In this document: positions 6,098-22,844 of the stretch, piece after piece | Position numbering within the stretch: the first letter of the stretch is position 1 | Layout of the letters: every line of letters begins with the position of its first letter | Assembly (NCBI GenBank): GCA_017940955.1 | Contig: JAGAXP010000071.1 | Coordinates: 1 to 25,802, forward strand | Reading direction: 5' to 3' | DNA: 25,802 nt | From: Oribacterium sp. | Lineage (GTDB): Bacteria > Bacillota_A > Clostridia > Lachnospirales > Lachnospiraceae | Translations under genes and position numbers: made by a program | Notes under the pieces: generated by a model | What the model was told of the DNA's origin: nothing | Databases searched by the model: none | What the model saw: only the letters and a program-made list of their open reading frames with translations

Positions 6098-6115
6098 TTT
6101 TTGTTGGGAGGAGTT

Positions 6116-7456
6116 ATGAAAATTTTTAATCCGAAATATGTATATACTTCAAACGAGTTTTTAAACGATGCCGGAATTCTTGTTGATGATGATGGCATCA
6201 TAAGGAAAATCTGTGATTTTCAGGAATTAAAAGCAAAATATCCTCAGGCGGAAGTTGAAACCTGGAAAAATATGGTTATGGTTCCGGGAGGGGTGAATGT
6301 CCATAATCATTCTTTTCAGATATTACTTCGTGGAATAGCGGCAGACAGACCTTTCCTTGAATGGAGAGATAAGTCACTTTATCATTATTCACCACTTATG
6401 ACAAAAGAAGATATTTATGTGGGCGCATTGTTCTGCTTTGCAGAGATGATGAAAAGAGGTGTTACGTGCGTCAGTGACTTCTTTTACCTGCATAATTTTG
6501 GCACAGATTCAGATTATGAAATTATTCGCGCTGCAAAGGATCTAGGAATGAGACTGGTTCTTTCAAGAACCATGTATGACTGGGATGGCGCTCCCTCCGA
6601 ATATGTGGAAACGATTGACAGGGCAGTCAAAAGTACAAAGATGCTTGCAGATGAGTTTAACGGCAAAACCAAGGATATGATAACAGTCCTTCCTTCGCCA
6701 CATTCCCTGCATGCCGCTTCTCCGGATATGATAGTTGCGGGACATGAGCTGGCAAAGGAGCTTGGAACCAGATTCCATATTCACGTTGCGGAAGAAAAAT
6801 TTGAGGTTGAGCAGGTGATGCGTGAGCATAACGGGCTAAGTACCATCGAATATCTGGATAAGCTTGGGGTTGTAGATGAACATATGATGATCATTCATGG
6901 CGTTTATCTAAAGCCTGAGGAAATTAAGCTTATGGGTGAGAGAGGAGTGGGTCTTGCTTACTGTCCTTCAAGTAATATGTTCCTGGCTGATGGAATTACG
7001 AATATTCCAGATATGATACAAAATGATGTACTTATCGGACTTGGAACCGACGGTGCCTGCGGAAATAATAGAAATAGTGTGTTTGAGGAAATGAGAATGG
7101 TATCTATTCTTCAAAAGGCGGCTACCTGTGACGCAATGTGCGTAAACTACAAACAGGCTTTTGATATGGGGACAATAAACGGCGGAAAGTTACTAGGGCT
7201 GCCTGTTGGAGATATAAAAGAAGGAATGAGAGCGGATTTTGCAGGCATTGATCTTGATGATCTGTCAATGCTGCCAATATCTGAAAATCTTGAGCAGATG
7301 CTTGCAAATATAGTTTATTCCCTGGAACCTACGGCAGTAAAAAATGTCGTGATTAACGGAAAAGATACAGTACATGATGGCATAATATGCGGAATAAGCG
7401 AAGAAGAGCTTGTTGAAAAAGTACGTGACACCATGAAGGCACTTAATGCAAAATAA
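6116..7456 (+). CDS. Amidohydrolase-superfamily deaminase, possibly HutF-like
   Basis: A 446-residue cytosolic metal-dependent hydrolase of the ATZ/TRZ-chlorohydrolase/deaminase group. Metal-site residues are visible: His63 and His65 (NVHNHSFQ), His223 (HIHVAEE), His261 (IIHGVYL) and Asp312 (GLGTDGACG). Features such as FLEWRDKSLY, FFYLHN and SPHSLHAASP recall formimidoylglutamate deiminase (HutF), which turns formiminoglutamate into formylglutamate. That would follow the HutI product made by this cluster. Guanine, adenosylhomocysteine or other deaminases of the same superfamily remain alternatives. ATG 6116 is chosen over the upstream TTG because GGGAGGAG (6107-6113) precedes it. It is the first gene inside the island's left edge and has no promoter of its own that I can see, so it may be read from the FUSC promoter. 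Confidence 0.7.
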   Translation: MKIFNPKYVYTSNEFLNDAGILVDDDGIIRKICDFQELKAKYPQAEVETWKNMVMVPGGVNVHNHSFQILLRGIAADRPFLEWRDKSLYHYSPLMTKEDIYVGALFCFAEMMKRGVTCVSDFFYLHNFGTDSDYEIIRAAKDLGMRLVLSRTMYDWDGAPSEYVETIDRAVKSTKMLADEFNGKTKDMITVLPSPHSLHAASPDMIVAGHELAKELGTRFHIHVAEEKFEVEQVMREHNGLSTIEYLDKLGVVDEHMMIIHGVYLKPEEIKLMGERGVGLAYCPSSNMFLADGITNIPDMIQNDVLIGLGTDGACGNNRNSVFEEMRMVSILQKAATCDAMCVNYKQAFDMGTINGGKLLGLPVGDIKEGMRADFAGIDLDDLSMLPISENLEQMLANIVYSLEPTAVKNVVINGKDTVHDGIICGISEEELVEKVRDTMKALNAK

Positions 7457-7464
7457 ATGAAATT

Positions 7465-7479
7465 ATTATTGACAATAAT
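7465..7479. promoter_or_regulatory. Inverted repeat over the hutU -35 box
   Basis: ATTATTG and CAATAAT pair perfectly around a single A, and the repeat contains the -35 hexamer. It is AT-rich, so chance is possible, but the position fits an operator. Confidence 0.3.
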
Positions 7480-7496
7480 TATTTTAATGATATCAT
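7469..7496 (+). promoter_or_regulatory. Promoter of the hutU operon
   Basis: TTGACA (7469-7474) and TATCAT (7491-7496) are 16 bases apart. The -35 lies in a perfect inverted repeat ATTATTG-A-CAATAAT (7465-7479), a possible operator. The -10 overlaps another palindrome, described separately. Confidence 0.7.
7487..7496. promoter_or_regulatory. ATGAT/ATCAT palindrome over the hutU -10 box
   Basis: ATGATATCAT is a perfect 10-base palindrome covering the -10 box. The same half-sites ATGAT and ATCAT occur as inverted repeats over the importer promoter (13152-13165, 4-base spacer) and beside the RpiR gene (19334-19346, 3-base spacer). This may be an operator for that regulator. The differing spacers weaken the case. 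Confidence 0.4.
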
Positions 7497-7537
7497 CAAT
7501 TGTAATACAAGTATTTATAAAAAGAATACGAATTATT

Positions 7538-7582
7538 AGAGGCAACGACGCTGAGATATGTGTTGTTGCCTCTTTTTATTTT
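7538..7582 (+). terminator. Leader terminator/attenuator before hutU
   Basis: AGAGGCAACGAC (7538-7549) pairs with GTTGTTGCCTCT (7562-7573) over 12 positions with one G-U pair, followed by TTTTATTTTT. It is a textbook intrinsic terminator, placed about 35 bases after the expected transcription start and just ahead of the hutU ribosome site. hutU expression should therefore need readthrough or antitermination. The hut operon of Bacillus subtilis is known to use the antiterminator HutP at such a site, but no hutP gene is in this window. Confidence 0.8.
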
Positions 7583-7598
7583 TAAGGAGGAGAGCGTT

Positions 7599-9614
7599 AT
7601 GGAAGAATGTATGAAGATTACACTGGATGATGAACTACCAAAGATGCCTGCGTTTGTTGAAGGTATAAGAAGAGCACCTTCACGAGGCTTTCATCTTACA
7701 TATGAACAGACTGTCACTGCTCTTAAAAATGCGCTTCGCTATATCAATCCCAAATATCATGAAGAACTTATACCTGAATTTCTAGATGAGCTTTACACAA
7801 AAGGCCGTATCTACGGTTACAGATTCAGACCTGAAGGGAGAATTTACGGAAAGCCTATCGATGAATACAAAGGGAAAAGCCTTGAGGGAAAAGCCTTTCA
7901 GGTCATGATTGACAATAATCTTGATTTTGAAGTTGCCTTATATCCCTACGAGCTTGTTACCTACGGTGAAACCGGAAGTGTGTGTCAGAATTGGATGCAG
8001 TACAGACTCATTAAGAAATACCTCGAAAATCTTACAGAAGATACGACACTGGTAATCGAATCGGGTCATCCGCTGGGACTATTCAAATCAAGACCGGAAG
8101 CTCCCAGAGTTACTATAACAAACGCTCTTATGATCGGTGAATTTGATAATCAGAAGGACTGGGAAATTGCTGAAGAAATGGGAGTTGCCAACTACGGTCA
8201 GATGACTGCCGGCGGTTGGATGTATATAGGTCCGCAGGGTATTGTCCATGGAACATATAACACATTACTTAATGCAGGAAGAAGTGAACTGGGAATCCCG
8301 GTGGATGGGGATCTCAGAGGGCATTTGTTTGTAAGCTCCGGACTTGGCGGAATGAGCGGTGCTCAGCCAAAGGCTGCCGAAATAGCAGGAGCAGTCGCAA
8401 TTATTGCTGAGGTTGATTATTCCCGCATACAGACAAGACTTGACCAGGGGTGGATAAGAGAAAGCTCAGACGATCTGGAGACAGTATTTAAACATGCAAA
8501 AGAAAAAATGGATGAAAAGGTACCATATTCCATTGCTTATCACGGAAATATAGTAGATCTTCTGGAATATGCAATCAGTAATCACATCCACATTGATCTG
8601 CTTTCGGATCAGACATCATGTCATGCCCAGTACGACGGAGGCTATTGCCCGCAGGGAATCACATTTGAGGAAAGAACAAAACTTCTTTCTGATGACAGAG
8701 ATAAATTTATCGAGCTCGTCAATATCACTTTACGTCATCATTTTGAGCTTATCCGCAAATGCCATGAGGACGGCACGTATTTCTTCGATTATGGTAACTC
8801 GTTCCTTAAAGCAGTATATGATGCTGGAGAAAAGACTGTTTCAAAGAATGGAATTGATGATAAGGACGGATTTGTATTCCCTTCATACGTTGAGGATATT
8901 ATGGGGCCTAAGCTTTTTGATTTTGGATATGGTCCTTTCAGATGGGTATGTCTCTCAGGTAAAGAGGATGACCTTGAAAAAACAGATACAGCTGCTATGG
9001 AGGCAATAGATAAAGAGCGCAGGTATCAGGATCTCGACAATTACAACTGGATACGTGATGCAAAGAAAAACAAACTTGTAGTCGGCACACAAGCCAGAAT
9101 TCTCTATCAGGATGCAATAGGTCGAGTGAACATAGCGCTCAAATTCAATGAGCTTGTAAGGAGAGGCGAAATCGGTCCTGTAATGATAGGAAGAGACCAT
9201 CATGATGTTTCGGGAACGGATTCACCATTTAGAGAAACATCCAATATTAAGGATGGTTCCAATGTCATGGCAGATATGGCTGTTCAGTGCTATGTGGGTA
9301 ATGCAGCAAGAGGAATGAGCCTTGTAGCCCTTCATAATGGCGGGGGCGTTGGAATCGGCAAATCCATTAATGGTGGATTTGGACTGGTACTGGATGGCAG
9401 CAAGAGAATTGATGAAGTCATTAAAAGCGCGATTTTGTGGGATGTAATGGGAGGTGTTGCAAGAAGAAGCTGGGCAAGGAATTCCAATGCCATAGAAGTT
9501 GTAAAGGAATATAACTCAAGTTACTTTGGTGAAAGTCAGATAACACTGCCTTATCTCGCTGATGAAGATATGGTAAAGACTGCAGTCAGAAAGACCTATG
9601 AATCACATGAATAA
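7599..9614 (+). CDS. hutU: Urocanate hydratase (urocanase), long type
   Basis: Converts urocanate to 4-imidazolone-5-propionate using tightly bound NAD+. The 671 residues match the long urocanase form, as in vertebrate UROC1, not the roughly 550-residue form of Bacillus and Pseudomonas. Conserved blocks include YGQMTAGGWMYIGPQGIV, GLGGMSGAQPKA, RDHHDVSGTDSPFRE and LHNGGGVGIGKSINGGFG. Cys451 in RWVCLSG is the likely equivalent of the essential cysteine. ATG 7599 is chosen because AAGGAGGAG (7584-7592) precedes it; the longer reading from 7560 would start inside the leader terminator. hutI begins 17 bases before this gene ends. It is the first gene of the hutU-hutI-hutD-aconitase X transcript. 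No histidine ammonia-lyase accompanies it. Confidence 0.95.
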   Translation: MEECMKITLDDELPKMPAFVEGIRRAPSRGFHLTYEQTVTALKNALRYINPKYHEELIPEFLDELYTKGRIYGYRFRPEGRIYGKPIDEYKGKSLEGKAFQVMIDNNLDFEVALYPYELVTYGETGSVCQNWMQYRLIKKYLENLTEDTTLVIESGHPLGLFKSRPEAPRVTITNALMIGEFDNQKDWEIAEEMGVANYGQMTAGGWMYIGPQGIVHGTYNTLLNAGRSELGIPVDGDLRGHLFVSSGLGGMSGAQPKAAEIAGAVAIIAEVDYSRIQTRLDQGWIRESSDDLETVFKHAKEKMDEKVPYSIAYHGNIVDLLEYAISNHIHIDLLSDQTSCHAQYDGGYCPQGITFEERTKLLSDDRDKFIELVNITLRHHFELIRKCHEDGTYFFDYGNSFLKAVYDAGEKTVSKNGIDDKDGFVFPSYVEDIMGPKLFDFGYGPFRWVCLSGKEDDLEKTDTAAMEAIDKERRYQDLDNYNWIRDAKKNKLVVGTQARILYQDAIGRVNIALKFNELVRRGEIGPVMIGRDHHDVSGTDSPFRETSNIKDGSNVMADMAVQCYVGNAARGMSLVALHNGGGVGIGKSINGGFGLVLDGSKRIDEVIKSAILWDVMGGVARRSWARNSNAIEVVKEYNSSYFGESQITLPYLADEDMVKTAVRKTYESHE

Positions 9615-10908
9615 AACAATAATTAAAAACATTTCGCAAATAGCCACACCTGAGGGCAAGACAGCACTTCACGGCAGTGAAATGAACAAAATAAAAATAA
9701 TAGAACATGCAGCCATCTATATTGAAGATGGAATAATAAAGGATCTTGGAACTGAGGGAGAGGTATTACAGAGAGTATGCCCAAACAACAGGCATACAAA
9801 AGACGGAAATACAGAAGGCACAGATGAAATAAGGACAATAGATGCGGGCAGAAAATGTGTGATACCGGGCTTTGTAGATTCACATACACATTTTATCTTT
9901 GCAGGTTACCGACCGGATGAATTTGTACGCCGTTTGCAGGGCACATCCTACATGGAAATTATGAATATGGGTGGCGGTATAAGCAGTACTGTAAAAGCTA
10001 CCAGAAACGCCGATAAGGAGCATCTCTATGATCTTGGGAAGAGCAGAATACAGGATATGCTAAGCCAGGGAATAACCACAATCGAGGGAAAAAGTGGTTA
10101 CGGTCTGGATTTTGATACAGAAAACAGAATGCTTGAGGTTATGGAAGATCTAAACAGAGACACTAAGATAGACATCAGTATTACATATCTCGGAGCCCAT
10201 GCGGTTGCTGAAGAGTATAAAGGAGATGCGGACTCATACATTGACTTTATGATAGCTGAAGTGCTTCCGGTGCTTAAAGACAATAAAGCAATAGAATTCG
10301 TTGATGCCTTCTGTGAGGATGGGGGCTTCGATTTGGATCAGACAAAAAGACTTTTAGAAGCAGCAGGAAAGATGGGATTTCATCTCAAGATGCATGCAGA
10401 TGAAATTGTACCTATAGGCGGAGCAGAACTTGCGGCTAACCTTGGATGCACATCTGCGGATCATCTCCTTGCAGCTTCTGATACCGGAATTGAAATGCTC
10501 TCTAAATCAGATACGGTTGCTACTTTACTTCCATGTACTGCATTCTGCCTGGGAAAACCTTATGCAAATGCAAGAAAAATGATCGACGCCGGTTGTGCGG
10601 TGGCACTTGCAAGTGACTTTAATCCCGGAAGCTGTTTTACTCAGTCAATTCCGCTTTTTGCCGCATTAGGAGCAATCCAGATGAAGATGACACCACAGGA
10701 AGTTTTGTGTGCGCTTACTCTGAACGGCGCAGCAGCGATTAATAGGGCTGACAGAATTGGTTCAATAGAAATAGGCAAGAAGGCAGATCTTAATATTTTG
10801 AAATATGAGGACTATAGATTCCTGATCTATAACACTGCTGCAAACACAGTAGATACCGTAATAAAGAATGGCGATATTGTTGCCGGTGAGGGCCGGGAGA
10901 TGGAATAA
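9598..10908 (+). CDS. hutI: Imidazolonepropionase
   Basis: Hydrolyses 4-imidazolone-5-propionate to N-formimino-L-glutamate, the step after urocanase. The 436-residue protein is an amidohydrolase with the metal-binding PGFVDSHTHFIFAG (His96, His98), the family-specific GKSGYGLD, MHADEIVP with its metal histidine, and the late ASDFNPGS block with the metal aspartate. It is slightly longer than typical HutI because of an insertion near residues 55-80, rich in charged residues and between strands of the N-terminal sandwich domain. The start may be ATG 9598 or ATG 9607. Both lie within the end of hutU, which implies translational coupling. HutD follows after 2 bases. Confidence 0.95.
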   Translation: MNHMNKTIIKNISQIATPEGKTALHGSEMNKIKIIEHAAIYIEDGIIKDLGTEGEVLQRVCPNNRHTKDGNTEGTDEIRTIDAGRKCVIPGFVDSHTHFIFAGYRPDEFVRRLQGTSYMEIMNMGGGISSTVKATRNADKEHLYDLGKSRIQDMLSQGITTIEGKSGYGLDFDTENRMLEVMEDLNRDTKIDISITYLGAHAVAEEYKGDADSYIDFMIAEVLPVLKDNKAIEFVDAFCEDGGFDLDQTKRLLEAAGKMGFHLKMHADEIVPIGGAELAANLGCTSADHLLAASDTGIEMLSKSDTVATLLPCTAFCLGKPYANARKMIDAGCAVALASDFNPGSCFTQSIPLFAALGAIQMKMTPQEVLCALTLNGAAAINRADRIGSIEIGKKADLNILKYEDYRFLIYNTAANTVDTVIKNGDIVAGEGREME

Positions 10909-10910
10909 AT

Positions 10911-11477
10911 ATGATCAAAACAATTCGTAAAGAGGAAATGAAAACAGTTGGGTGGTCGGGGGGAACAACTACGGAAATAATGATTCTTCCCCAGGACTCA
11001 TCCTATAAGGAAAGGACATTTGATGTAAGAATAAGTTCAGCCACAGTTGATGTCGCAAAAAGTGATTTTACTAAGCTGGATGGCGTTCATAGAACATTAA
11101 TGGTTCTTGATGGAAAAATGGCACTTTATACCGATGATAAACTGCTGGCTGATCTTAGCCCGCTTGAAAAAAACGAGTTTGAAGGAAGCGATAACATAAG
11201 ATGCCTGGGGCAGGGGCGGGACTTCAATCTGATGCTGAGAAACGGCTATAAGGGGTCTGTTACAGGTTTTAAAGTTAATGCAAAAGAAGTTATTGAAAAA
11301 GTAGCCGCAAAATGCGGAGATGTGATTTTTGTACATAAAGGGGAAGTGGAGCTCAGTGACATAAAAGATGGAATAAATATTGATAAAGGTAATGCTGCTT
11401 TTATTGAATCTGATAAATACTCAATAAAAGCGCAGGAGGAAAGCGTATTTGTAATTGTAGAACTAAATGGGTTCTAA
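10911..11477 (+). CDS. hutD: HutD-family cupin protein
   Basis: A 188-residue protein with the HutD family hallmarks: GWSGGTTTEI near the N-terminus, DVRISSATV, and a double-cupin pattern including HRTLMVLDGKMAL. In Pseudomonas, HutD is described as a governor of histidine-utilisation gene expression and is thought to bind a pathway intermediate. Its presence next to hutU and hutI supports a urocanate pathway. It follows hutI by 2 bases and precedes the aconitase X pair by 35 bases. No enzymatic residues can be assigned. Confidence 0.85.
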   Translation: MIKTIRKEEMKTVGWSGGTTTEIMILPQDSSYKERTFDVRISSATVDVAKSDFTKLDGVHRTLMVLDGKMALYTDDKLLADLSPLEKNEFEGSDNIRCLGQGRDFNLMLRNGYKGSVTGFKVNAKEVIEKVAAKCGDVIFVHKGEVELSDIKDGINIDKGNAAFIESDKYSIKAQEESVFVIVELNGF

Positions 11478-11512
11478 AATTCTGATAGTGCGTTTCAAGG
11501 GAGGAGCTATGT

Positions 11513-12718
11513 ATGAAACTGACTGATGAACAAAAAGCCATGCTGGAGGGAGAATATGGCGAAGGGGCTGCATATGCCATGAAAATAGAAGTTGCAATCG
11601 GAGAATCTTTTGATGCAGAAAGAATGGTTCCGATTACACGGGCACATGTGGCACTCAGTAACCAGGATGCGGATCTCTGGTTTGCGGAAAAAATGCTTGA
11701 AAAGGGTGCGCATTGCAGGGTATCACCTACGGTTAATCCGGGATTTTGCGTATCATTTTTTAAAGAAAGAGGACTTGTAAAAGATGAAGATGCCGAAATG
11801 ATGATGCGCACTCATAATGCATATAAGGGACTTGGGGCTACACTTACATATAACTGTACGCCTTATGTAGCAACGAATATCCCGAATTACGGCGAGATAT
11901 GTGCTTTTTCCGAGTCGAGTGCAACACCTTACGTAAATTCCGTTTGGGGTGCAAGATCAAACCGTGAGGGTGCCAACAGTGCTTTATGTGCAGCTATTAC
12001 CGGATTCGTTCCGGAGTATGGACTTTTACTCGATGAGAATAGGAAAGGTAATATTCTTGTCAACATAGAAGCTGATATGAAATCGGATTTTGAGTACCAT
12101 CTTCTGGGATATTGCGGCAAAAAAATAGGCCCGGGGATCCCTGTTTTCACAGGACTTCCTTCACATATAAGCCCCGAATCACTTACTAATCTCGGAGCTC
12201 AGCTTAATACCTCGGGAGCTTACGGAATGTACCATATTGTTGGGTTTACCCCGGAAGCAAGAACGATGGAGGAAGCTTTTGGCGGTAAAAAGCCGGAGCG
12301 CGTAGTAAATATTACAAACAAAGACCTGGAGGACATTCTGGAACAGATATCTTATTCAGGTAACAGAAAGATTGACTTTGCCATGTTCGGATGTCCTCAT
12401 TTTACATTGAATCAGGCAAAGCATATAGCATCAAAAGTTGAGGGGAAAAAACTCAGCGTGCCGTTGTGGATATTGACTTCTTATCACGTAAAGGAGCTTG
12501 CGGATCGCATGGGCATTACACAGATTATCGAGGATGCGGGAGGAAATATTATCCCGGATACATGTCCAGACCAGCCCTGCTGGAACTGGCTTAATGGGAA
12601 GGTGGGAGTAACGGAATCACCAAAATGCGCTTATTATCCAAAAAGAAGGGGAATCGAATTTGTGATAAGAGATCTTGATACTTGTATTGAAGCAGCAATA
12701 AAAGGGGAGGTGATCTAA
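11513..12718 (+). CDS. Aconitase X catalytic (large) subunit
   Basis: A 401-residue protein of the aconitase X (DUF521) family, iron-sulfur hydro-lyases whose known members dehydrate cis-3-hydroxy-L-proline in bacteria or phosphomevalonate in archaea. Hallmarks are NCTPYVATNIP (Cys115), FSESSATPYVNSVWGARSNR, GCPHFT (Cys294) and PDTCPD (Cys351). The three cysteines are the likely cluster ligands. SPKCAYYPKRRG near the C-terminus is the conserved tail. ATG 11513 has GGGAGGAG (11500-11506). The ATG at 11509 is out of frame and stops at once. The small subunit starts on the next base after the stop. Placement inside a hut operon is unusual. A role in dehydrating an imidazole hydroxyacid to urocanate is my inference, and 3-hydroxyproline dehydratase is the main alternative. 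Confidence 0.88.
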   Translation: MKLTDEQKAMLEGEYGEGAAYAMKIEVAIGESFDAERMVPITRAHVALSNQDADLWFAEKMLEKGAHCRVSPTVNPGFCVSFFKERGLVKDEDAEMMMRTHNAYKGLGATLTYNCTPYVATNIPNYGEICAFSESSATPYVNSVWGARSNREGANSALCAAITGFVPEYGLLLDENRKGNILVNIEADMKSDFEYHLLGYCGKKIGPGIPVFTGLPSHISPESLTNLGAQLNTSGAYGMYHIVGFTPEARTMEEAFGGKKPERVVNITNKDLEDILEQISYSGNRKIDFAMFGCPHFTLNQAKHIASKVEGKKLSVPLWILTSYHVKELADRMGITQIIEDAGGNIIPDTCPDQPCWNWLNGKVGVTESPKCAYYPKRRGIEFVIRDLDTCIEAAIKGEVI

Positions 12719-13123
12719 ATGGGCAAGCGCTACTCATGTCATAAGATATCTGAGGGTAAGGCAGACGGTGAAGCCCTTGTGTCTTTAGATGATATTATGT
12801 TTTATCTTATAAAGCCTGAAACCGGTGTGGTTATTGAGCCTTCGCACGATCTGTACGGAAAAAGTATGGCTCAAAAAATATTGATATTTCCAAGCGGAAA
12901 AGGTTCAAGTGTGGTTCAGGCAGACGGGCTGTTTCAGCTAAATAAAAACGGTAATATGCCAAAGGCAATGATCATACAGTATCCGGAAACGGTGCTGGTA
13001 TCGAGTGCAATTATTATGGATATACCGATGGTTGATAAGGTTGATCCCGCATTTTATGAGGATATAAAGAGCGGGGATGAGATTATTGTCAACGCGGACG
13101 AAGGATATATTGAAATAATTTGA
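12719..13123 (+). CDS. Aconitase X swivel (small) subunit
   Basis: A 134-residue protein of the DUF126/aconitase X swivel domain family, the mobile domain that closes over the active site of the large subunit. Visible features are GKADGEALVS, an HDLYGKS segment and FPSGKGSSV, with the conserved Ser-Ser loop expected to touch the substrate. It starts immediately after the large-subunit stop and uses GGGGAGGTG in the end of that gene as ribosome site. Two separate subunits correspond to the type II arrangement. It is the last gene of the hutU transcript; the next promoter begins 10 bases downstream. Confidence 0.88.
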   Translation: MGKRYSCHKISEGKADGEALVSLDDIMFYLIKPETGVVIEPSHDLYGKSMAQKILIFPSGKGSSVVQADGLFQLNKNGNMPKAMIIQYPETVLVSSAIIMDIPMVDKVDPAFYEDIKSGDEIIVNADEGYIEII

Positions 13124-13132
13124 TAAAAAGAG

Positions 13133-13161
13133 TTGACATGACATCGAATTGATGATATAAA
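13133..13161 (+). promoter_or_regulatory. Promoter of the ABC importer operon
   Basis: TTGACA (13133-13138) and TATAAA (13156-13161) are 17 bases apart, close to consensus. Transcription would start about 13168, followed closely by a terminator hairpin. Confidence 0.75.
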
Positions 13162-13167
13162 TCATCA
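13150..13167. promoter_or_regulatory. TGATGAT/ATCATCA inverted repeat over the importer -10 box
   Basis: TGATGAT (13150-13156) and ATCATCA (13161-13167) form a perfect 7-base inverted repeat with a 4-base spacer covering the -10 box. It shares ATGAT/ATCAT half-sites with 7487-7496 and 19334-19346, suggesting a common repressor, most simply the RpiR protein encoded at 18437-19309. Confidence 0.45.
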
Positions 13168-13192
13168 TAAATAAAATATTGATGAAAACATT

Positions 13193-13243
13193 AACGAGTG
13201 GCAATGGTGCTAAAAGGTTCCATTGCTGCTCGTTTTATATTTT
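13193..13243 (+). terminator. Leader terminator/attenuator before the importer operon
   Basis: AACGAGTGGCAATGG (13193-13207) pairs along its whole length, with two G-U pairs, to CCATTGCTGCTCGTT (13220-13234), followed by TTATATTTT. This strong intrinsic terminator lies about 25 bases after the expected start and 70 bases before the first gene, the same arrangement as at hutU. Regulated readthrough is likely. Confidence 0.75.
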
Positions 13244-13314
13244 AAAAAGAGCACTCTTTTTGAAATATGAATGTTTCAAATATAACAAGGGTGAGGAGCC
13301 CGGAGGAGGAAATT

Positions 13315-14409
13315 ATGAGAAAGAAGTTTTTAGTTACTGCAACAACGATGGCTATGACACTAATGACAATTACAGGGTGCGGAGCATCAGATGCATCTGT
13401 TAAAACTACAGCTGATACAGCTGAAAGCACAAGCTCAGAAGAGGATTCCGTTGAACCTGCATCTGAAGATACTGCTTCAGAAGAGAAGACGGATGATGCA
13501 GAAGGTGGTTTATACGATGGAAAAGTAATACTTGGTCATTCTTCCTGGATCGGATATGCACCGCTTAATGTAGCAGATGAGTTGGGATTATTTGAAAAGC
13601 ATGGAGTAGATGTAGACATCCAGTCATTTGAATCTAAATCAGATTCAAGAGCTGCTCTTGCTGCAGGCAGAATACAGGGTATGTCAACAACGGTTGATAC
13701 TCAGGTTATGAGTGCAGCTCAGGGACTTGATATTCAGATAGTTCTTGCTGAAGACACATCGGACGGTGGTGACGGACTTTCAGCAAAGAGTGAGTTTACT
13801 GATATTCCATCACTTAAAGGACATACCGTAGCACTTGATACTTCAGGCGGTGCTTCCTATTTCTGGTTCCAGTATCTTCTCAAGGAAAATGATATGACTT
13901 TGGATGATGTTGAAGCTGTGAATATGAGTTCCGGTGATGCAGGAGCTGCTTTCGTTGCAGGAGAAGTAGATGCAGCAGTAACCTGGGAGCCATGGCTTTC
14001 AAGGGCAAAGGAAGCAGAAGGAGGAGCAGTACTTGTTGATTCATCTGCAACACCGGGTATCATCGTTGATGCACTTGCAATGGATACCAAGTTTGCAGAA
14101 CAGTATCCCGATACTGTAAAGGGAATCATCGAAGCCTGGTATGATGCTGTTGATCTTATTAAGACAAATCCCGATGAGGCTTATCCTATCATGATGAACT
14201 TTACAGGCGATGAGACAGTAGAAGCTCTTGAGGGTGAACTTGAAGGAGTTACATTCTATGACAGAGATGGTAATAAAGCATATTTCGGAGGAGATATCCA
14301 GAAAATAGCAGGCATGGCTGCAGACCTCTGGGTTGAAACAGGACTTATCGAGAGTGCTCCGGATATGGATTCAATGATAAATGGCAGTTTTATTGATGGT
14401 CTTGAATAA
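13315..14409 (+). CDS. ABC importer substrate-binding lipoprotein (NitT/TauT, NMT1/ThiY type)
   Basis: A 364-residue secreted lipoprotein: positive MRKKF start, hydrophobic stretch and lipobox ITGC with Cys22 as the lipidated residue. A Ser/Glu/Asp-rich linker (about 23-62) then tethers the binding domain. The binding domain opens with ILGHSSWIGYAPLNVADELG and contains TWEPWL, typical of the NMT1/SsuA/ThiY-like periplasmic-binding family used by nitrate, taurine, sulfonate, pyrimidine and aromatic importers. ATG 13315 is chosen because GGAGGAGGA (13302-13310) precedes it. It is followed by permease and ATPase genes. The substrate is unknown; from context an imidazole acid such as urocanate or imidazolelactate is likely. 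Confidence 0.9.
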   Translation: MRKKFLVTATTMAMTLMTITGCGASDASVKTTADTAESTSSEEDSVEPASEDTASEEKTDDAEGGLYDGKVILGHSSWIGYAPLNVADELGLFEKHGVDVDIQSFESKSDSRAALAAGRIQGMSTTVDTQVMSAAQGLDIQIVLAEDTSDGGDGLSAKSEFTDIPSLKGHTVALDTSGGASYFWFQYLLKENDMTLDDVEAVNMSSGDAGAAFVAGEVDAAVTWEPWLSRAKEAEGGAVLVDSSATPGIIVDALAMDTKFAEQYPDTVKGIIEAWYDAVDLIKTNPDEAYPIMMNFTGDETVEALEGELEGVTFYDRDGNKAYFGGDIQKIAGMAADLWVETGLIESAPDMDSMINGSFIDGLE

Positions 14410-14419
14410 AGAATAATTG

Positions 14420-14450
14420 TTGCCGGGACCCTGCTAAGAGGTTCCGGCAA
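14420..14450 (+). promoter_or_regulatory. Intercistronic hairpin between binding protein and permease
   Basis: TTGCCGGGACC (14420-14430) pairs with GGTTCCGGCAA (14440-14450) over 11 positions with one G-U pair. There is no T run after it. Such hairpins often protect the upstream message so that the binding protein is made in excess over the membrane parts. Confidence 0.6.
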
Positions 14451-14466
14451 GAAAAAGAGGTATTTT

Positions 14467-15336
14467 ATGGAGAGTATGGCGATTGTGGCAAACAAAAAAA
14501 GAGTAAATGAAGAAGTAAACGTCATTCAGGAAAGCCAAAAAAGGAAATACCTGTCGGATGCATTTACACCAAAAGGAACTATTAAAAGCAGGTCTTACAT
14601 TACTATATCCGTTGTATCATTTTTGCTTATCTTTTTGGTATGGTGGTATGAATGTAATCTGGGTGGTGTAAACTCCATGTTTCTTCCATCTGTTGCGAGT
14701 ACCTTCGAATCTGCAAAGCATATGTTTTTGAAAGAAAACTTTCTTTTTGATATTTGGATGTCTGTTCAAAGAGTACTGCTTGGCTTTGCTATTTCCGCGG
14801 TTGTTGGTATTCCGCTTGGACTGCTTATCGGAACTTACGCACCGGTTGCTGCCTTTCTTGAACCGCTGTTTTCCTTTTTCAGGTATCTTCCGGCGTCTGC
14901 ATTTATTCAGCTGTTTATTTTATGGATTGGAATCGGCGAATCTTCAAAGGTTGCAATTATTATTGTAGGGAGTCTTGCACAGATAATCCTTATGGTTGCA
15001 ACTAATGTAAGAAATGTAAGTATCTCACTTGTGGAGGTTTCCTATACTTTGGGAGTAACAAGAGGATCCGTATTTTGGAAAGTTCTTCTTCCGAAATGTA
15101 TGCCGGATATCGTTGATACACTCAGAATGGTTCTTGGATGGGCGTGGACATATATCATCGTCGCAGAGATGGTCGGAGCTTCAGAAGGTGTTGGATTCAT
15201 GATAACCCAGGCAGGACGTCAGTTCATGATTTCAAAGATATTTGTCGGAATTATCACTATCGGTATCATCGGACTTGCTCTTGATATGATGTGTATGTTT
15301 TTTAAGAAAATACTGTTTCCATGGAATGAAGATTAA
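14467..15336 (+). CDS. ABC importer permease (NitT/TauT family)
   Basis: A 289-residue inner-membrane permease of the SsuC/TauC type with about six membrane helices. The first is near residues 48-63; a cytoplasmic tail of about 45 residues precedes it. The EAA loop that contacts the ATPase is seen as [19 protein letters not shown], about two-thirds along. ATG 14467 follows AGAGG. The ATPase gene starts 14 bases downstream. It forms the channel for the substrate captured by the upstream lipoprotein. Confidence 0.92.
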
Positions 15337-15350
15337 AAGAGGACAATGAT

Positions 15351-16214
15351 ATGGCAGGATATGATCATATAGATTCACCCAAAGAAGTTGACTATTATGT
15401 AGACGATAAAGGTAATTACTACAAATTACATAACGGCGTGGACATTATTAACGTGACAAAACAGTTTGAAACAAAGGACGGAATGGTACAGGCTCTCAAT
15501 CCTGTAAGCCTGCATATTCGTGATAAGGAATTTGTAGCTATTCTCGGTACTTCCGGGTGCGGTAAATCCACTCTTCTTCGTATGATAGGAGGATTTGATC
15601 AGCCCACAACAGGAAGCGTGATGTTTCATAAAAAGGAAATCCACAGGCCCAGTGCATATATTGGCATGGTATTCCAGTCCTATACATTGTTTCCCTGGCT
15701 TAATGTTCACGATAATATTGCATTTGGGTTACGACAGCTTAAGAAGCATACACCAAGTGAGATCAATGATATTGTACATGAGTATACAGAACTGGTGGGC
15801 CTTAAGGGCTTTGAAAAGAAATATCCCAAGAATCTGTCAGGCGGTATGAAACAAAGGGTTGCCATTGCCAGAGCACTTGCAACCGATCCGTCCGTACTTT
15901 TACTTGATGAACCCTTTGGGGCACTTGATATGCAGACGAGGGAAGTCATGCAGGAACTTTTACTTAATGTATGGCAGAGATCTCCCAAGACCATTGTTAT
16001 GGTGACTCACGATATAGACGAGGCAATTCTTCTTGCGGACAGAGTGGTTGTAATGACATCAAGACCCGGCAATATCAAGGAGATTATTGATGTAAATCTT
16101 GAAAGACCAAGAAACTGGAAAATAAGAAATACAGAAGAATTCCTGAAATACAGAGAACGATGCTCGGAGCTTATAAGGCAGGAAAGCATGAAACTTATCC
16201 AGACAGCGTCGTAA
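15351..16214 (+). CDS. ABC importer ATPase (NitT/TauT family)
   Basis: A 287-residue ATPase that powers the importer from the cytoplasmic side. Walker A is GTSGCGKST (66-74), the signature is LSGGMKQR (162-169) and Walker B is LLLDEP (183-188), followed by the D-loop GALD and the switch histidine in VTHDIDEA. The N-terminus carries about 30 extra residues rich in Tyr and Asp before the first strand, longer than most SsuB/TauB proteins. It closes the three-gene transporter; the LarA-like gene follows after 18 bases and is probably co-transcribed. Confidence 0.94.
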
Positions 16215-16232
16215 ACGCAGGCAGGCGAAAAT

Positions 16233-17462
16233 ATGGCAGTACTTTTAAAAGAAGAATATGAATATGAATTACCGGAGATGTTTCCGGTGAGGCAGATATT
16301 TAAAGATGAAGCATTGCAGGATATTGAAGGAAGCGTGCTACAGGAGCTTGGAAAAAAAGAAATATCGGAAAAGTTACGTCCCGGAATGAAGGTTGCTGTT
16401 GCAGTCGGAAGCAGGGGAATCGCAAATATTTTTACTATAGTCAAAACCTGTGTGGATTTTTTGATTGAAAACGGCTGTAAGCCCTATATCGTTTCTGCCA
16501 TGGGAAGTCATGGCGGCGGGACTGAAGAAGGACAAAGACAGGTACTTGCCGAATACGGGGTGAGTGAGGAGAATCTGTCGGTACCGGTTATAACTACAGT
16601 GGACACAATATTGTGTGGTCACAGAGAAAATGGCACTCCCGTTTATTTTGACAGGGCTGCATCAGAAGCAGATTTGATTATTCCAATAAACAGAATAAAA
16701 CTGCATACGGATTTTGATGGACCGCTTCAGAGCGGGCTTTGCAAAATGCTTGTCATAGGACTTGGAAATCAAAAGGGCTGTTCCATTATGCACGAGACAG
16801 AACCTGAAGAATTCGCAACCGGTCTTGAGGATGCAGCCGGATTGATCCTTTCCAAAATGCCTGTGGGATTTGGGATAGCTGTGATGGAAAATGCTTATGA
16901 TCATACCTGTCTCATAGAAGCTATACCGGGAGAAAAAATCATAGAACGGGAAAAGAATCTGGTAAAGGATTGTGCAAGCCTTATGCCCTTTATAAGGATA
17001 GAAGAAGCGGATGTTCTAATTGTTGATGAGATTGGAAAGGAGATATCCGGAGCGGGATACGATCCCAATATACTTGGACGAAGCAGCATGTTAAAGGCCA
17101 GGAGGCTACATGTTCCCAAATTTAAGCGAATGATTCTTCTCGATGTCACGAAAAAATCCCACGGAAATGCGATTGGAATAGGGCAGTTTGATTTTGTGAC
17201 AAAAAATGTTGTCGATAGCATGGATAAAGAAACAGTATATGTTAATGCGCTTGCTGTTAAATGTCCTGAGGATGCCAGAATACCTGTAATTGCACGGGAC
17301 AGAGATGAAGCTGTCAGGATGGCACTTCATTGTTGCAGAGATATAGATAAGAAAAATCCCAGGATACTTGAAATAAAAAACACGGCAGAACTTGATATTA
17401 TTAGGTTATCAGGGGCATACGAAGAAGAGGTCGAAAAAAATCCTTATCTACAAAAATTATAA
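16233..17462 (+). CDS. LarA-like (DUF2088) protein, putative hydroxyacid racemase
   Basis: A 409-residue protein resembling the LarA/DUF2088 superfamily. LarA of Lactobacillus is a nickel-pincer racemase of lactate, and other family members act on other 2-hydroxyacids. The N-terminal domain shows VAVAVGSRG, then SAMGSHGGGTEEG (His93), INRIKLHTDF (Lys156, His158) and GLCKMLVIGLGNQKG (Lys171). The GTHR-type motif of lactate racemase itself is replaced by GSHGG, so this is a divergent subgroup whose chemistry is not established. No cofactor-making larB, larC or larE gene is in the window. The gene sits between the importer and a D-2-hydroxyacid dehydrogenase, which supports hydroxyacid metabolism. 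The ribosome site is weak. Confidence 0.65.
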   Translation: MAVLLKEEYEYELPEMFPVRQIFKDEALQDIEGSVLQELGKKEISEKLRPGMKVAVAVGSRGIANIFTIVKTCVDFLIENGCKPYIVSAMGSHGGGTEEGQRQVLAEYGVSEENLSVPVITTVDTILCGHRENGTPVYFDRAASEADLIIPINRIKLHTDFDGPLQSGLCKMLVIGLGNQKGCSIMHETEPEEFATGLEDAAGLILSKMPVGFGIAVMENAYDHTCLIEAIPGEKIIEREKNLVKDCASLMPFIRIEEADVLIVDEIGKEISGAGYDPNILGRSSMLKARRLHVPKFKRMILLDVTKKSHGNAIGIGQFDFVTKNVVDSMDKETVYVNALAVKCPEDARIPVIARDRDEAVRMALHCCRDIDKKNPRILEIKNTAELDIIRLSGAYEEEVEKNPYLQKL

Positions 17463-17485
17463 ATAATTGCGAGCAGGATAAGACT

Positions 17486-18436
17486 ATGGCAAAAGTAGCA
17501 TATTATAACATGCCCGGGGACATCAGTTACGAAAAGCATCTGCTTGATGAATGGAATATAAAGGAACTCATTCCGAAAACAGTCAAAGGAGATGATATTG
17601 TAAATAATCTTCAGGGCTATGACGGACTTGTAACTGAATATACTATTTTGGATGAAAATACACTAAGACAACTTCCGGAGCTTAAAATAATAGCTTTGCA
17701 GAGTGTGGGGTTTGATGAAATAGATATAGCCGGTGCAAGAAGGTGCAATATAGACGTTACAAACTCGCCCGGATACTGTACGGATGAAGTTGCTACACAT
17801 GCTATGGCGCTACTTCTTAGTCTTGTAAGGAAAATAGCTTTTTATGACAAAGCAACGCATGAAGGAAAGTGGGATCCCTTTGAAGGAAACACTATGCATA
17901 ACTTGAAGGGTATGACGGCAGGTCTTTTTTCATTTGGAAGGATTGCCATGACCTTTGCAAATATGCTTAAAGCTTTCGGTGTGAGAGTAATAGCATATGA
18001 TCCTTCAAAAAGTGGTGATTTTATGAAGGATCATGGAGTAGAAAAGGTAGATGATCCAAAAGAACTTGTTTCCAAAAGCGATATCATATCTCTTCATTCG
18101 CCTTTAAACAGCAAGACCTATCATATGATTGATAAGGAACTTTTAAACGCCTGCAAAGAAAATGCCATTTTGATAAATACGGCAAGAGGTGCTCTTATAG
18201 ATGAGGATGCTTTATACGAGGCACTTCTTACCGGAAAGATCAGTATGGCAGGCCTGGATGTTTTGGAAGACGAAAAAAGTCATAATTCAAAGCTCTTTTC
18301 GCTAAGCAATGTGATCATAACTCCACACACCGCTTTTTTATCCGAAGAATCCATGCAGGAATGCAGAAAAATAGCACTTGAGCAGCTTGTCACAAAGCTT
18401 ATTAAAAATGAAACACCTGAAAATCTGGTAAATTAG
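17486..18436 (+). CDS. D-isomer-specific 2-hydroxyacid dehydrogenase
   Basis: A 316-residue NAD(P)-dependent oxidoreductase converting a D-2-hydroxyacid and its 2-oxoacid. Catalytic residues are all present: Arg234 (NTARGALID), Glu263 (VLEDE) and His281 (ITPHTAF). Asp172 at the end of the second Rossmann strand (VIAYDPS) favours NAD over NADP. The glycine-rich loop is unusual: GLFSFGRIA has Ser and Ala where glycines normally stand. The SPGYCTDEVATHAMALLL block is typical of the family. It ends directly against the convergent regulator gene with no spacer. In context the substrate may be imidazolepyruvate/imidazolelactate; lactate, phenyllactate or another acid cannot be excluded. Confidence 0.88.
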   Translation: MAKVAYYNMPGDISYEKHLLDEWNIKELIPKTVKGDDIVNNLQGYDGLVTEYTILDENTLRQLPELKIIALQSVGFDEIDIAGARRCNIDVTNSPGYCTDEVATHAMALLLSLVRKIAFYDKATHEGKWDPFEGNTMHNLKGMTAGLFSFGRIAMTFANMLKAFGVRVIAYDPSKSGDFMKDHGVEKVDDPKELVSKSDIISLHSPLNSKTYHMIDKELLNACKENAILINTARGALIDEDALYEALLTGKISMAGLDVLEDEKSHNSKLFSLSNVIITPHTAFLSEESMQECRKIALEQLVTKLIKNETPENLVN

Positions 18437-19309
18437 TTACTTATCGTAATATATTTGGTTTTCCTTTTCAAAGGCTTCAATTTTTGAGATGCGCTTTTTG
18501 ACATTAGGAAGTGCTTTTGCAACATCATTCATTAAAAGATTGGTAAATGTAATCGGAACCCCATAATTATTAAATACAGATGATGTTGTTATCGGCAAAA
18601 TAACAGTGTTTTCAGCATCTGCATACATCGGACACATACGGCTGTCAGTTATCAGATGGTATTTAATGCCTGATGCTTTAACCTGTTTTATCATATCAAT
18701 CAGATCATTTGCATAACGTGGGAATGAAAATACCAGAATTCCGGTTTCTTTTTTATTTTTAAAAATGAGGTTTTGAAATTCAATGGAACCGGGAGTTTCC
18801 ATATAAACATTATCTCGCATCTTACTTAGCATGTATGTTGCATAAGGAAGAATGGTCGAAGTATATCTGGAAGATACGAGATGTATGCTCTGAGATTCTG
18901 AAATGAATTTGACGAGTTTACTGTATTCATCAGATTCTGTGACAGATAAAAGCTTTTGCAGATTAGCGCATTCTTCATCAATGATTTCTTTATGAATGTT
19001 TCCTTTTTTATCAGCGTTTCTTTGGATTCTGTCGGGGGCAGTTATATTATCACAAAATGTGCTGTGAAGATTTTTTATAAAATCGGAGTATCCAAGGAAA
19101 CCTAAATCCTTACAAAATCTTGAAACGCTTCCCTGACTTATTCCAACAGCGTCTGCAACTTCTTCTGCTGACATAAATCCAAGATCCATATAGTGTTTTT
19201 CTATGTATAAACCGAACTTTTTGTAAGTAGAGGAAGATAATGCAAGGGATGATACCCTGTCCATCATTTCTTCGTAACTGATAGGAGATGTTTTTTTATT
19301 TTTTCTCAT
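18437..19309 (-). CDS. RpiR/MurR-family transcriptional regulator
   Basis: A 290-residue repressor/activator with an N-terminal HTH_6 domain (about residues 12-85; the recognition region is SAEEVADAVGISQGSVSRF) and a C-terminal SIS domain (about 125-265) that normally binds a phosphosugar or other effector. It is the only minus-strand gene in the window and the only DNA-binding regulator of the island. Its coding end abuts the dehydrogenase gene tail to tail, and its start faces the M20 gene across 126 bases. An ATGAT/ATCAT inverted repeat in that gap, also seen over both island promoters, is a candidate binding site. The effector is unknown; SIS domains usually sense sugar phosphates, which would be odd here. 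Confidence 0.9.
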   Translation of the reverse strand: MRKNKKTSPISYEEMMDRVSSLALSSSTYKKFGLYIEKHYMDLGFMSAEEVADAVGISQGSVSRFCKDLGFLGYSDFIKNLHSTFCDNITAPDRIQRNADKKGNIHKEIIDEECANLQKLLSVTESDEYSKLVKFISESQSIHLVSSRYTSTILPYATYMLSKMRDNVYMETPGSIEFQNLIFKNKKETGILVFSFPRYANDLIDMIKQVKASGIKYHLITDSRMCPMYADAENTVILPITTSSVFNNYGVPITFTNLLMNDVAKALPNVKKRISKIEAFEKENQIYYDK

Positions 19310-19333
19310 ATTAAGAACCCCGATGTAAAAATT

Positions 19334-19346
19334 ATGATAAAATCAT
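19334..19346. promoter_or_regulatory. ATGAT/ATCAT inverted repeat in the RpiR-M20 intergenic region
   Basis: ATGAT (19334-19338) and ATCAT (19342-19346) are separated by AAA. The site lies upstream of both divergent genes, as expected for an autoregulated operator, and shares half-sites with those at the hutU and importer promoters. I saw no convincing -35/-10 pair for either divergent gene in this gap. Confidence 0.4.
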
Positions 19347-19435
19347 TCATTTGCCGTCGCGCGTGAATACAATCATTAAAACACGCCATGCCGGTACTGT
19401 CAATTCAAATTGGTTTTATCAGAAAAGAGGCATAT

Positions 19436-20632
19436 ATGAATATTGAAAACGAACTTAAGGAACTTACCTGTACTATTGCCAACCCCGGACTTAATGAAGA
19501 TGGATCCTATTCAAGGTTACCTTTTTCTGAGGAATATTTTTTATCAGTCCAGATTACCGCAGATATATTGGAAAAAGAAGATCTTGATGTACACATAGAT
19601 ACTGTAGGGAATGTTATAGGTACCTTAAAAGGAACGAATCCCGAAAGAGGAAAGATCATGATAGGTTCGCACCTTGATTCCGTCAAGGAGGGCGGCCTAT
19701 ATGACGGAGCGCTGGGGGTTGCTTCAGCCATTATGTGTATAAAGCTTTTAAAGGAAAACAATATAAAATTGAAGCATGACCTTTTGATAAGCGGATTGCA
19801 GGCGGAAGAAGGAAGCCCGCTTGGTGGTACTTTTGGCAGTCGTTCCATGATGGGACTTATTTCTATTGATGAAGAATATGAGAAAGTTCTCAGAAGCTAT
19901 GGCATCACAAAAGATGATATAGAAAAAGCCAAAATAGATACCGGTGATATTAAAGGGTATATGGAGCTACATATAGAGCAGGGAAAAATACTTGAAACCG
20001 GCAACATTTCCATAGGAATAGTAACAGGAATAGTCGGAATTTCAAGGTATATGATAACAATAAAAGGGGAATGTAACCATGCAGGCACAACGCCTATGAG
20101 GATGCGAAAAGATGCCCTTATCTGTGCAGCCAAGGTTCTTACATTTATAGATGATCAGGCAAAGGGAAGAAAAGATAATCTTGTCGCAACTGTAGCACGT
20201 ATGGAAATATTGCCTTCTGCGATAGCGGTTATTCCCGGTGAAGTACAGATGCTGCTTGAAGTAAGGGATATGGAAAAGGCTTCAATAGATGCGTTTATGG
20301 AGAAGGTAAAGGGCTTTTGTGATCAGCTTGAAGGATTTGATATAGATATTCGGATAATAATAGAGAAGCCGTCAGTTTATTGTGATACAGATTTTGGAGA
20401 TGCCATAAGAGAAGCCTGTGATATAGAGGATTTAACCTATACAGCAATCCAAAGCGGCGCAGGGCATGACGGTAATGCCTTTGGCAGTAAAATGCCAATA
20501 GGAATGATATTTGTACCAAGTGTTAACGGATTAAGTCATTGTAAGGAGGAGTATACAAAATGGGAAGACGCTGAAAAAGGTGTCAGAGCCTTGTACCGTA
20601 CGCTGCTGCTTTTGGATGAAAAAATTTTTTAA
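19436..20632 (+). CDS. M20-family amidase/carbamoylase (HyuC/AllC type)
   Basis: A 398-residue dinuclear metal hydrolase of the N-carbamoyl-L-amino-acid hydrolase/allantoate amidohydrolase group. Metal-site blocks are GSHLDSV (His79), GGLYDGALGV (Asp90), QAEEGS (Glu124-Glu125), YMELHIEQG and the late GLSHCKEE. CNHAGTTPM and SGAGHDGNAFG are group-typical. These enzymes cleave carbamoyl, ureido or similar groups from amino acids. In this cluster it may act on N-formyl-, N-formimino- or N-carbamoylglutamate, replacing the missing HutG; this is inference. ATG 19436 is chosen over ATG 19388 because AGAGG (19426-19430) precedes it and the extra 16 residues are not family-like. It ends 10 bases before the right-hand promoter copy. 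Confidence 0.88.
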   Translation: MNIENELKELTCTIANPGLNEDGSYSRLPFSEEYFLSVQITADILEKEDLDVHIDTVGNVIGTLKGTNPERGKIMIGSHLDSVKEGGLYDGALGVASAIMCIKLLKENNIKLKHDLLISGLQAEEGSPLGGTFGSRSMMGLISIDEEYEKVLRSYGITKDDIEKAKIDTGDIKGYMELHIEQGKILETGNISIGIVTGIVGISRYMITIKGECNHAGTTPMRMRKDALICAAKVLTFIDDQAKGRKDNLVATVARMEILPSAIAVIPGEVQMLLEVRDMEKASIDAFMEKVKGFCDQLEGFDIDIRIIIEKPSVYCDTDFGDAIREACDIEDLTYTAIQSGAGHDGNAFGSKMPIGMIFVPSVNGLSHCKEEYTKWEDAEKGVRALYRTLLLLDEKIF

Positions 20633-20826: not shown

Positions 20827-20882
20827 TCTGTTTTATTTCAGAAGAAGGGAATCGGCTTATGAACAATGTAAATCTGCTAAAG
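20827..20882 (+). repeat. Right copy of the FUSC-end/ATP-grasp-start junction
   Basis: 20827-20857 is a remnant of the FUSC gene end (one mismatch in 31 against 6034-6064). The extra T at 20858 then puts the ATP-grasp ATG out of frame with the remnant. The rest of the FUSC gene is missing from this copy. Confidence 0.85.
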
Positions 20883-22825: not shown

Positions 22826-22844
22826 GGTTTAAGGATGTGATGTC

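Follow-up and report, generated by a model that had tools for sequence, protein, structure and literature searches.

The stretch analysed here, contig JAGAXP010000071.1 of Oribacterium sp. (assembly GCA_017940955.1; genome G000), is 25,802 nucleotides long and is referred to in full as the window; its central feature is an operon-like run that joins genes of the hut pathway to a two-subunit aconitase X (AcnX). Gene identities were assigned from sequence by profile search, using Pfam and NCBIfam/TIGRFAM models with curated cut-offs. Throughout 6101-18436 the genes lie on the + strand, with intergenic gaps of -17 to 143 bases. The run opens with a deaminase-type amidohydrolase (6101..7456; PF01979, 202 bits), followed by hutU, encoding a long-form urocanate hydratase (7599..9614; TIGR01228, 446.6 bits, cut-off 375), hutI, encoding imidazolonepropionase (9598..10908; TIGR01224, 431.8 bits, cut-off 298), and hutD (10911..11477; PF05962, 95 bits). 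The large (11513..12718; PF04412, 452 bits) and swivel (12719..13123; PF01989, 94 bits) subunits of AcnX come next, and then an ABC importer consisting of an SsuA/NMT1-type substrate-binding lipoprotein (13267..14409; TIGR01728, 166 bits, cut-off 163.5), a permease (14467..15336; PF00528, 83 bits), and an ATPase (15351..16214; PF00005, 122 bits). A LarA-like protein (16233..17462; NF052515 'NPN isomerase group 22', 482.7 bits, cut-off 400) and a D-2-hydroxyacid dehydrogenase (17486..18436; PF02826, 187 bits) close the run. Downstream, an RpiR/MurR family regulator on the - strand (18437..19309; PF01418, 34 bits; PF01380, 28 bits), with relatives at 36-38% identity in loci L033, L034, L100, L101, and L165, precedes an M20 amidase of the carbamoylase/allantoate amidohydrolase type on the + strand (19388..20632; TIGR01879, 323 bits, cut-off 204). 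A sequence-only reading of this DNA had named hutU, hutI, hutD, the AcnX pair, the LarA-like protein, the dehydrogenase, and the importer, each of which profile search confirmed, and had seen in them a possible route from imidazolelactate to glutamate.

The hut pathway is represented by HutU and HutI, both of which pass curated cut-offs; their best PDB matches were 6uek, a urocanate hydratase of 681 residues (579 bits), and the imidazolonepropionase 2bb0 (331 bits), respectively. For hutU, 7599 is a better start than the listed ORF (open reading frame) start at 7560, as AAGGAGG lies just 5' of it and relatives start similarly; the first GTG, at 7560, falls within a terminator-like hairpin. The hutU leader (7469..7573, + strand, by consensus match only) carries a promoter-like site at 7469-7496 (TTGACA-16-TATCAT with TG), then a 14-pair hairpin and T-run at 7538-7573, immediately 5' of the hutU ribosome-binding site, and from its sequence looks like an attenuator. 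No Rfam family reached its gathering threshold anywhere in the window.

None of the 23 main ORFs of the window was an ammonia-lyase in a Pfam scan, in agreement with the earlier remark that it holds no hutH-like gene. A functional hutH elsewhere in the genome could still feed such an operon; PF00221, the family of histidine ammonia-lyase, gave no match in the whole genome (88% complete, 151 contigs), and the same search was positive in 5 of 14 control genomes. Because absence from a genome of this completeness is no proof, other genomes were examined. The operon recurs, whole or in pieces, in nine genomes besides the window's. AcnX, the SsuA-type importer, the amidohydrolase, the M20 amidase, HutU, and HutI share a single stretch in the window, L034, L108, and L112; in L108 (Lactobacillus sp.) the order is AcnX large subunit, swivel subunit, dehydrogenase, importer, M20 amidase, amidohydrolase, HutU, HutI. 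L033 is complete except for hutU, which was found on another contig and shares 86% identity with that of the window. The short contig of L104 carries M20-amidohydrolase-AcnX-swivel-HutU, and the operons of L109 and L110 are split across contigs, with the remainder in L165 and, partly, L140. Leaving aside the distant hutU and hutI of Faecalispora, identity to the window was 75-86% for HutU, 54-55% for HutI, 60-65% for the amidohydrolase, and 29-32% for the M20 amidase. Since the amidohydrolase and the M20 amidase recur with the operon, both were counted in the set, although orthology of the M20 enzymes, judged by sequence, is less sure.

Six of the ten operon genomes had no PF00221 match (window, L034, L104, L108, L109, and L112), and three of these, L108, L109, and L112, are strain records that bear a name. 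PF00221 members are present in L033 and L110, with 312 and 406 bits under the HutH cut-off of 539, and the two Faecalispora genomes (L100, L101) have high-scoring genes (655-662 bits on PF00221). In a draw of genomes from the window's class, hutU without PF00221 occurred, besides the window, only in G556 and G709, the hutU match of the latter being very weak. PF00221 was missing from 5 of 9 non-window operon genomes versus 2 of 54 (p = 3e-4, which is not a fair probability, given related species and differently drawn sets). The operon's AcnX proteins belong to two lineages, one branch holding the window, L033, and L034 and another the rest, as would be expected if both lineages make the same product. 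The first three loci carry LarA group 22; in the available stretches of second-lineage loci no LarA was seen, and the dehydrogenase is present in 6 of 7 (not in L104, where the contig is short).

This AcnX clade goes with urocanase beyond the operon as well. 80 AcnX-clade loci were collected and 50 of their genomes, by our own selection, were searched: 18 picked for nearby hut or operon genes and 32 without a known hut gene near AcnX. They represent 20 named genera (45 Bacillota, 2 Actinomycetota, 1 Synergistota, 1 recorded as Fusobacterium, and 1 lacking a phylum label). Urocanase was found in all 50 (49 over the cut-off and one partial match), and thus in 32 of the 32 picked without a nearby hut gene (31 over the cut-off), as compared to 55 of 391 genomes of the window's class (51 over the cut-off). 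The Fisher p value for 50/50 versus 55/391, 9e-37, is no fair probability, given the kinship among the species and the different ways in which the two sets were drawn. AcnX homologues were present in 37 of the 391 class genomes. At 49% identity or more to the window's AcnX, 3 of 3 genomes had urocanase, although these are not independent of the 50, being the window's own and two with hit coordinates identical to the L059 and L066 genomes. At 41-43%, 2 of 3 had it, the third having the ammonia-lyase family only, and below 41% (weak fragments included) the figure was 5 of 31, the background rate. Because distant AcnX stands at background, the hut link belongs to this clade and not to AcnX at large.

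Gene neighbourhoods were counted over at most about 10 kb on each side of AcnX, with any family member accepted. hutU, hutI, hutH, hutD, or ftcD lies near AcnX in 17 of 80 loci, which are spread across several phyla. Six further loci have a divergent HutH-like gene, one of which was scored and reached 508 bits where the HutH cut-off is 539, and two others, L109 and L110, are operon pieces cut at contig ends. Desulfofundulus has the order HutH-AcnX-swivel-HutU, two Acidimicrobiaceae have HutU-AcnX-swivel-LarA22 behind ftcD, and in Dethiobacter LarA-AcnX stands together with HutH, ftcD, and HutI. In L102 (Synergistetes), HutU, an OYE-type reductase, LarA, and AcnX are consecutive, with a TRAP importer close by on the other strand; PF00221 was searched for in this genome and none was found. 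On the AcnX tree, the hut label (including the operon's amidohydrolase) is scattered and requires 13 gains or losses, at least 10 of them forced by supported branches, while 500 label shuffles averaged 18.6 changes, so that the label is also clustered on the tree. acnX was found beside hutU in, for example, Desulfofundulus and Acidimicrobiaceae; any hut gene is near AcnX in only the 17 loci. We regard the AcnX-hut link as strong.

The same counts bear on a different explanation, in which the clade serves the fermentation of some other hydroxyacid, be it 2-hydroxyglutarate, hydroxyproline, or an acid imported by TRAP, and is found with urocanase only because organisms that ferment amino acids possess the two. 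Many AcnX holders are named after or known for amino-acid fermentation, and TRAP (36/80) and GntR (44/80) genes are frequent around AcnX. However, the 2-hydroxyglutaryl-CoA dehydratase family PF06050 was over its cut-off in just 11 of 20 genomes tested, with no match in four Lactobacillus/Liquorilactobacillus and both Acidimicrobiaceae and sub-threshold scores in the genomes of the window, L102, and L104, and the 2-hydroxyglutarate route was on that count rejected as a general explanation. The background rate of urocanase with distant AcnX of the same class, the single run of AcnX, HutU, and HutI in L108 and L112, and the absence of hydroxyproline landmark residues (see below) also argue against this explanation, which we consider quite unlikely.

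AcnX could also run in reverse, hydrating urocanate to imidazolelactate for oxidation by the dehydrogenase, which would give the hut pathway an overflow or redox branch. Hydro-lyases are reversible, and in L097 AcnX lies between HutH and HutU, but genomes without the ammonia-lyase family would need another supply of urocanate, and the operon contains an importer; we give this direction very little credence. Two further arrangements were observed around AcnX. In L097 (15440-20764) and L098 (1744-5185) it stands beside histidinol-dehydrogenase-like genes (TIGR00069, 504 bits, in L097, which also has a zinc alcohol dehydrogenase) and ABC importer genes of the sugar type; the same pathway may be entered there at the level of an alcohol. 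In L058 (10001-17459; Blautia parvula), the clade AcnX is accompanied by an MttB-like methyltransferase, another AcnX that is only distantly related (30%), and a pair of HutH-like genes, of which the one scored fell below the HutH cut-off; this cluster may act on a methylated histidine relative.

Dehydration of imidazolelactate would fall to AcnX, and its residues were examined. The pair belongs to the aconitase X superfamily, with large and swivel domains, iron-sulfur (Fe-S) cysteines, and catalytic residues kept. Ser63 of the swivel subunit, a putative general base assigned through its GxGS motif and PMC8184944 (a source available to us in part, here and below), is conserved in 87 of 87 swivel rows. 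A tight grouping with 3-hydroxyproline dehydratases, which would have spoken against the route, was not found: model NF051439 gave 222 bits against a cut-off of 700, and the landmark residues of the tumefaciens AcnX taken from that source are absent, Asp203 falling in a gap, Ile206 aligning with Leu48, and Thr72, placed through the GxGS motif, having Val65 as its counterpart (Trp35 lay outside the tool-made alignment). Hydroxyproline dehydratase was rejected on these grounds. Phosphomevalonate dehydratase (AcnX type IIb) was also rejected, as the phosphate-binding set of the Thermococcus kodakarensis enzyme (Gly48, Val49, Ser50, Asn53, and Asn79; PMC8184944, in part) is only partly present: Gly48 and Asn53 fall in gaps and Val49 is replaced by Leu48, with Ser50 (Ser49) and Asn79 (Asn75) kept. 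Seven clusters (L046, L057, L062, L073, L077, L079, and L107) combine one TRAP importer and one LarA with two AcnX pairs, each from its own lineage (identity to the window's about 70-74% and 55-59%); the two pairs might serve both enantiomers.

The sequence-only reading had itself cautioned that known AcnX chemistry involves a β-hydroxyl, and this caveat is upheld by the available part of PMC8184944, according to which characterised AcnX enzymes eliminate the hydroxyl β, not α, to the bound carboxylate. AcnX could dehydrate another imidazole hydroxyacid, such as 3-hydroxy-3-(imidazolyl)propionate, and keep its β-hydroxyl chemistry, with LarA and the dehydrogenase acting alongside. The T. kodakarensis residues that bind the carboxylate and β-hydroxyl are conserved in the clade, and the hut association would be explained equally well. 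On the other side, LarA relatives and D-2-hydroxyacid dehydrogenases act on α-hydroxyacids and one or the other is present in 67 of 80 loci (LarA in 46, the dehydrogenase in 33), and we know of no natural pool of the β-hydroxy compound; a substrate of this kind is unlikely in our view. For imidazolelactate, the caveat is softened by established aconitase chemistry: the isocitrate hydroxyl is α to the iron-chelating carboxylate, and the proton leaves from the position next to the second carboxylate, whose part the imidazole ring would have to take.

A phmmer search of the LarA-like protein against the PDB gave no match, and membership was for this reason examined by fold comparison, in which the LarA fold and two catalytic histidines were conserved. 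The NPN maturation gene larC is present in the same genome. A term search of the LarA literature, as far as its text was available, found no substrate for group 22. LarA group 22 was tried as a marker of the system and set aside, as it matched in 26 of 295 genomes of the order (22 over the cut-off), some with at least six copies; in 29 short loci from those other genomes LarA was 34-41% identical or unmatched, and the roughly 4 kb covered contained neither AcnX nor a hut gene. Single genomes of family f17 had at least six LarA group 22 matches, and their short flanks likewise contained no AcnX and no hut genes.

For the lower part of the pathway, the best NCBIfam match of the amidohydrolase was 5'-deoxyadenosine deaminase (283 bits, cut-off 522), and its scores against HutF models (194.6 bits versus 362; TIGR02022, 179 versus 413) place it outside the HutF family. 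The M20 amidase scored 349 bits against the ErtE N-carbamyl-L-glutamate amidohydrolase model (cut-off 520) and 216 bits against PDB 3n5f. From context and family, the former would be a formiminoglutamate deiminase with a HutF-like role and the latter an N-formyl-L-glutamate amidase, a deformylase giving glutamate. The ErtE score, along with 305 bits for HutU on the thiourocanate hydratase model, could instead indicate breakdown of an ergothioneine-type imidazole acid carrying a 2-thio or 2-oxo group, but both scores are far under their cut-offs (520 and 930), HutU does better on the true urocanase model, and HutI is over its cut-off. This ergothioneine (Ert) type of route was rejected, and we rate it as extremely unlikely.

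The joint presence of a dehydratase and urocanase in genomes without ammonia-lyase, and of a putative 2-hydroxyacid racemase and a 2-hydroxyacid dehydrogenase, leads to imidazolelactate-to-urocanate conversion as the preferred reading. The operon probably, although by no means surely, serves to take up imidazolelactate (or imidazolepyruvate) and break it down completely to glutamate, with no part played by histidine ammonia-lyase. Either acid would enter through the ABC importer, and LarA group 22, as an imidazolelactate racemase, and the dehydrogenase, acting on imidazolepyruvate/D-imidazolelactate, would convert it to the stereoisomer accepted by AcnX. The Fe-S AcnX pair, as an imidazolelactate dehydratase, would yield urocanate, from which HutU would form imidazolonepropionate and HutI formiminoglutamate; the amidohydrolase would then release ammonia to give N-formylglutamate, and the M20 amidase would split this into glutamate and formate. 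The sequences establish what the genes are, HutU and HutI included, the folds and conserved catalytic residues of AcnX and LarA, and the tie between this AcnX clade and urocanase; from these we infer the substrate, direction, stereochemistry, and α-hydroxyl chemistry, as well as the roles of the last two enzymes. Of the route first proposed, the connection of AcnX to urocanate degradation stood, through co-occurrence, hut neighbourhoods, and an operon without the ammonia-lyase family, and imidazolelactate, as candidate substrate, fits the partner genes. The broader idea, that the clade (Bacillota, Synergistota, Actinomycetota, and many gut anaerobes) is a coenzyme A (CoA)-independent imidazolelactate dehydratase that uses the aromatic ring as second carboxylate and gives an ammonia-lyase-free entry to hut, with LarA group 22 as imidazolelactate racemase, is in our judgment evenly poised between right and wrong.

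Several observations weigh against these proposals. Known AcnX enzymes act on a β-hydroxyl, so that α-hydroxyl chemistry would be a departure, and hut genes are near AcnX in fewer loci than TRAP and GntR genes. The LarA and dehydrogenase counts accept any family member in the stretch, and a search of 15 genomes with LarA found no larC in 5, including two isolates (G340, G331). The operons of Faecalispora L100 and L101 lack their own hutU and hutI, which lie elsewhere with hutH and ftcD, and the M20 amidases of other operons have the low identity given above. The window's genome is incomplete, L034 and L104 come from uncultured bacteria, the species are interrelated, and the 50 genomes were of our choosing. 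Finally, 44 of these 50 carry a PF00221 gene; the clade is therefore generally additional to hutH, and the anti-correlation of acnX and hutH that had been anticipated holds for the window's type of operon but not for the clade at large.

Outside the operon, 20859-25545 contains in a row a circularly permuted ATP-grasp gene, an Alpha-E gene, a transglutaminase-like gene, and two AstE/AspA-type genes, a cluster of unassigned product that adjoins the operon, and a single ORF at 4802-6097 fuses an aromatic-acid-exporter (ArAE/FUSC) domain with a HAD-hydrolase domain.

Pseudomonas degrades imidazolyl-lactate via imidazolepyruvate and histidine. If an Fe-S AcnX dehydrates imidazolelactate, as is probable, both the activity and the route would be new. 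Among the matches listed, no published imidazolelactate dehydratase was found, and in one of the listings no paper had aconitase X or DUF521, which is weak evidence of novelty given that subscription literature lay mostly outside the search. No paper was found joining aconitase X with LarA, lactate racemase with urocanate, or imidazole lactate with urocan- and dehydrat-; in the text available, imidazolelactate and urocanate appeared together in a root-exudate survey only. A 2026 preprint on gut histidine fermentation sorts species by hutH with hutU or urdA (PMC13320830, available in part), and the term aconitase is absent from its text as available. [Clostridium] symbiosum (L051), which we take to be its O. 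symbiosa, has a locus with AcnX, TRAP, and LarA22. If true, the proposal would change which gut bacteria are expected to form glutamate, imidazole propionate, and the like from urocanate, a prediction now based on those genes (PMC13320830, in part). It would also give a function to LarA group 22 and to a bacterial AcnX clade of the kind left open in the available part of PMC8184944, and add an entry that bypasses the signature enzyme of an amino-acid pathway that is among the oldest known. The system is well suited to testing whether dehydration of an aryl-lactate by an Fe-S hydro-lyase is possible in the absence of CoA.

Compared with known AcnX enzymes, the window's pair shares the fold, the three Fe-S cysteines of the archaeal enzyme, the catalytic Glu/Ser/Lys/Tyr, the swivel serine, and archaeal Asn79, but its clade lacks the hydroxyproline specificity residues and phosphate-loop Gly48 and Asn53. 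It resembles the bacterial heterodimeric subclasses IIc-IIf taken together, left without function in PMC8184944 as far as available. The LarA-like protein agrees with superfamily group 22 in score, fold, and histidines and differs in being tied to AcnX and hut genes. With the hut pathway the window shares HutU, HutI, HutD, and presumably glutamate as end product, and its deaminase and amidase could replace HutF plus HutG, whose roles would fall to other subfamilies; it differs in that no HutH was found and that the entry genes are AcnX, LarA, the D-2-hydroxyacid dehydrogenase, and the importer. The 2-hydroxyacyl-CoA dehydratases of reductive Stickland pathways (phenyllactate and others) likewise convert a 2-hydroxyacid to an acrylate, but they do so with CoA esters and a radical mechanism, whereas the reaction proposed here would use the free acid and an aconitase-type enzyme.

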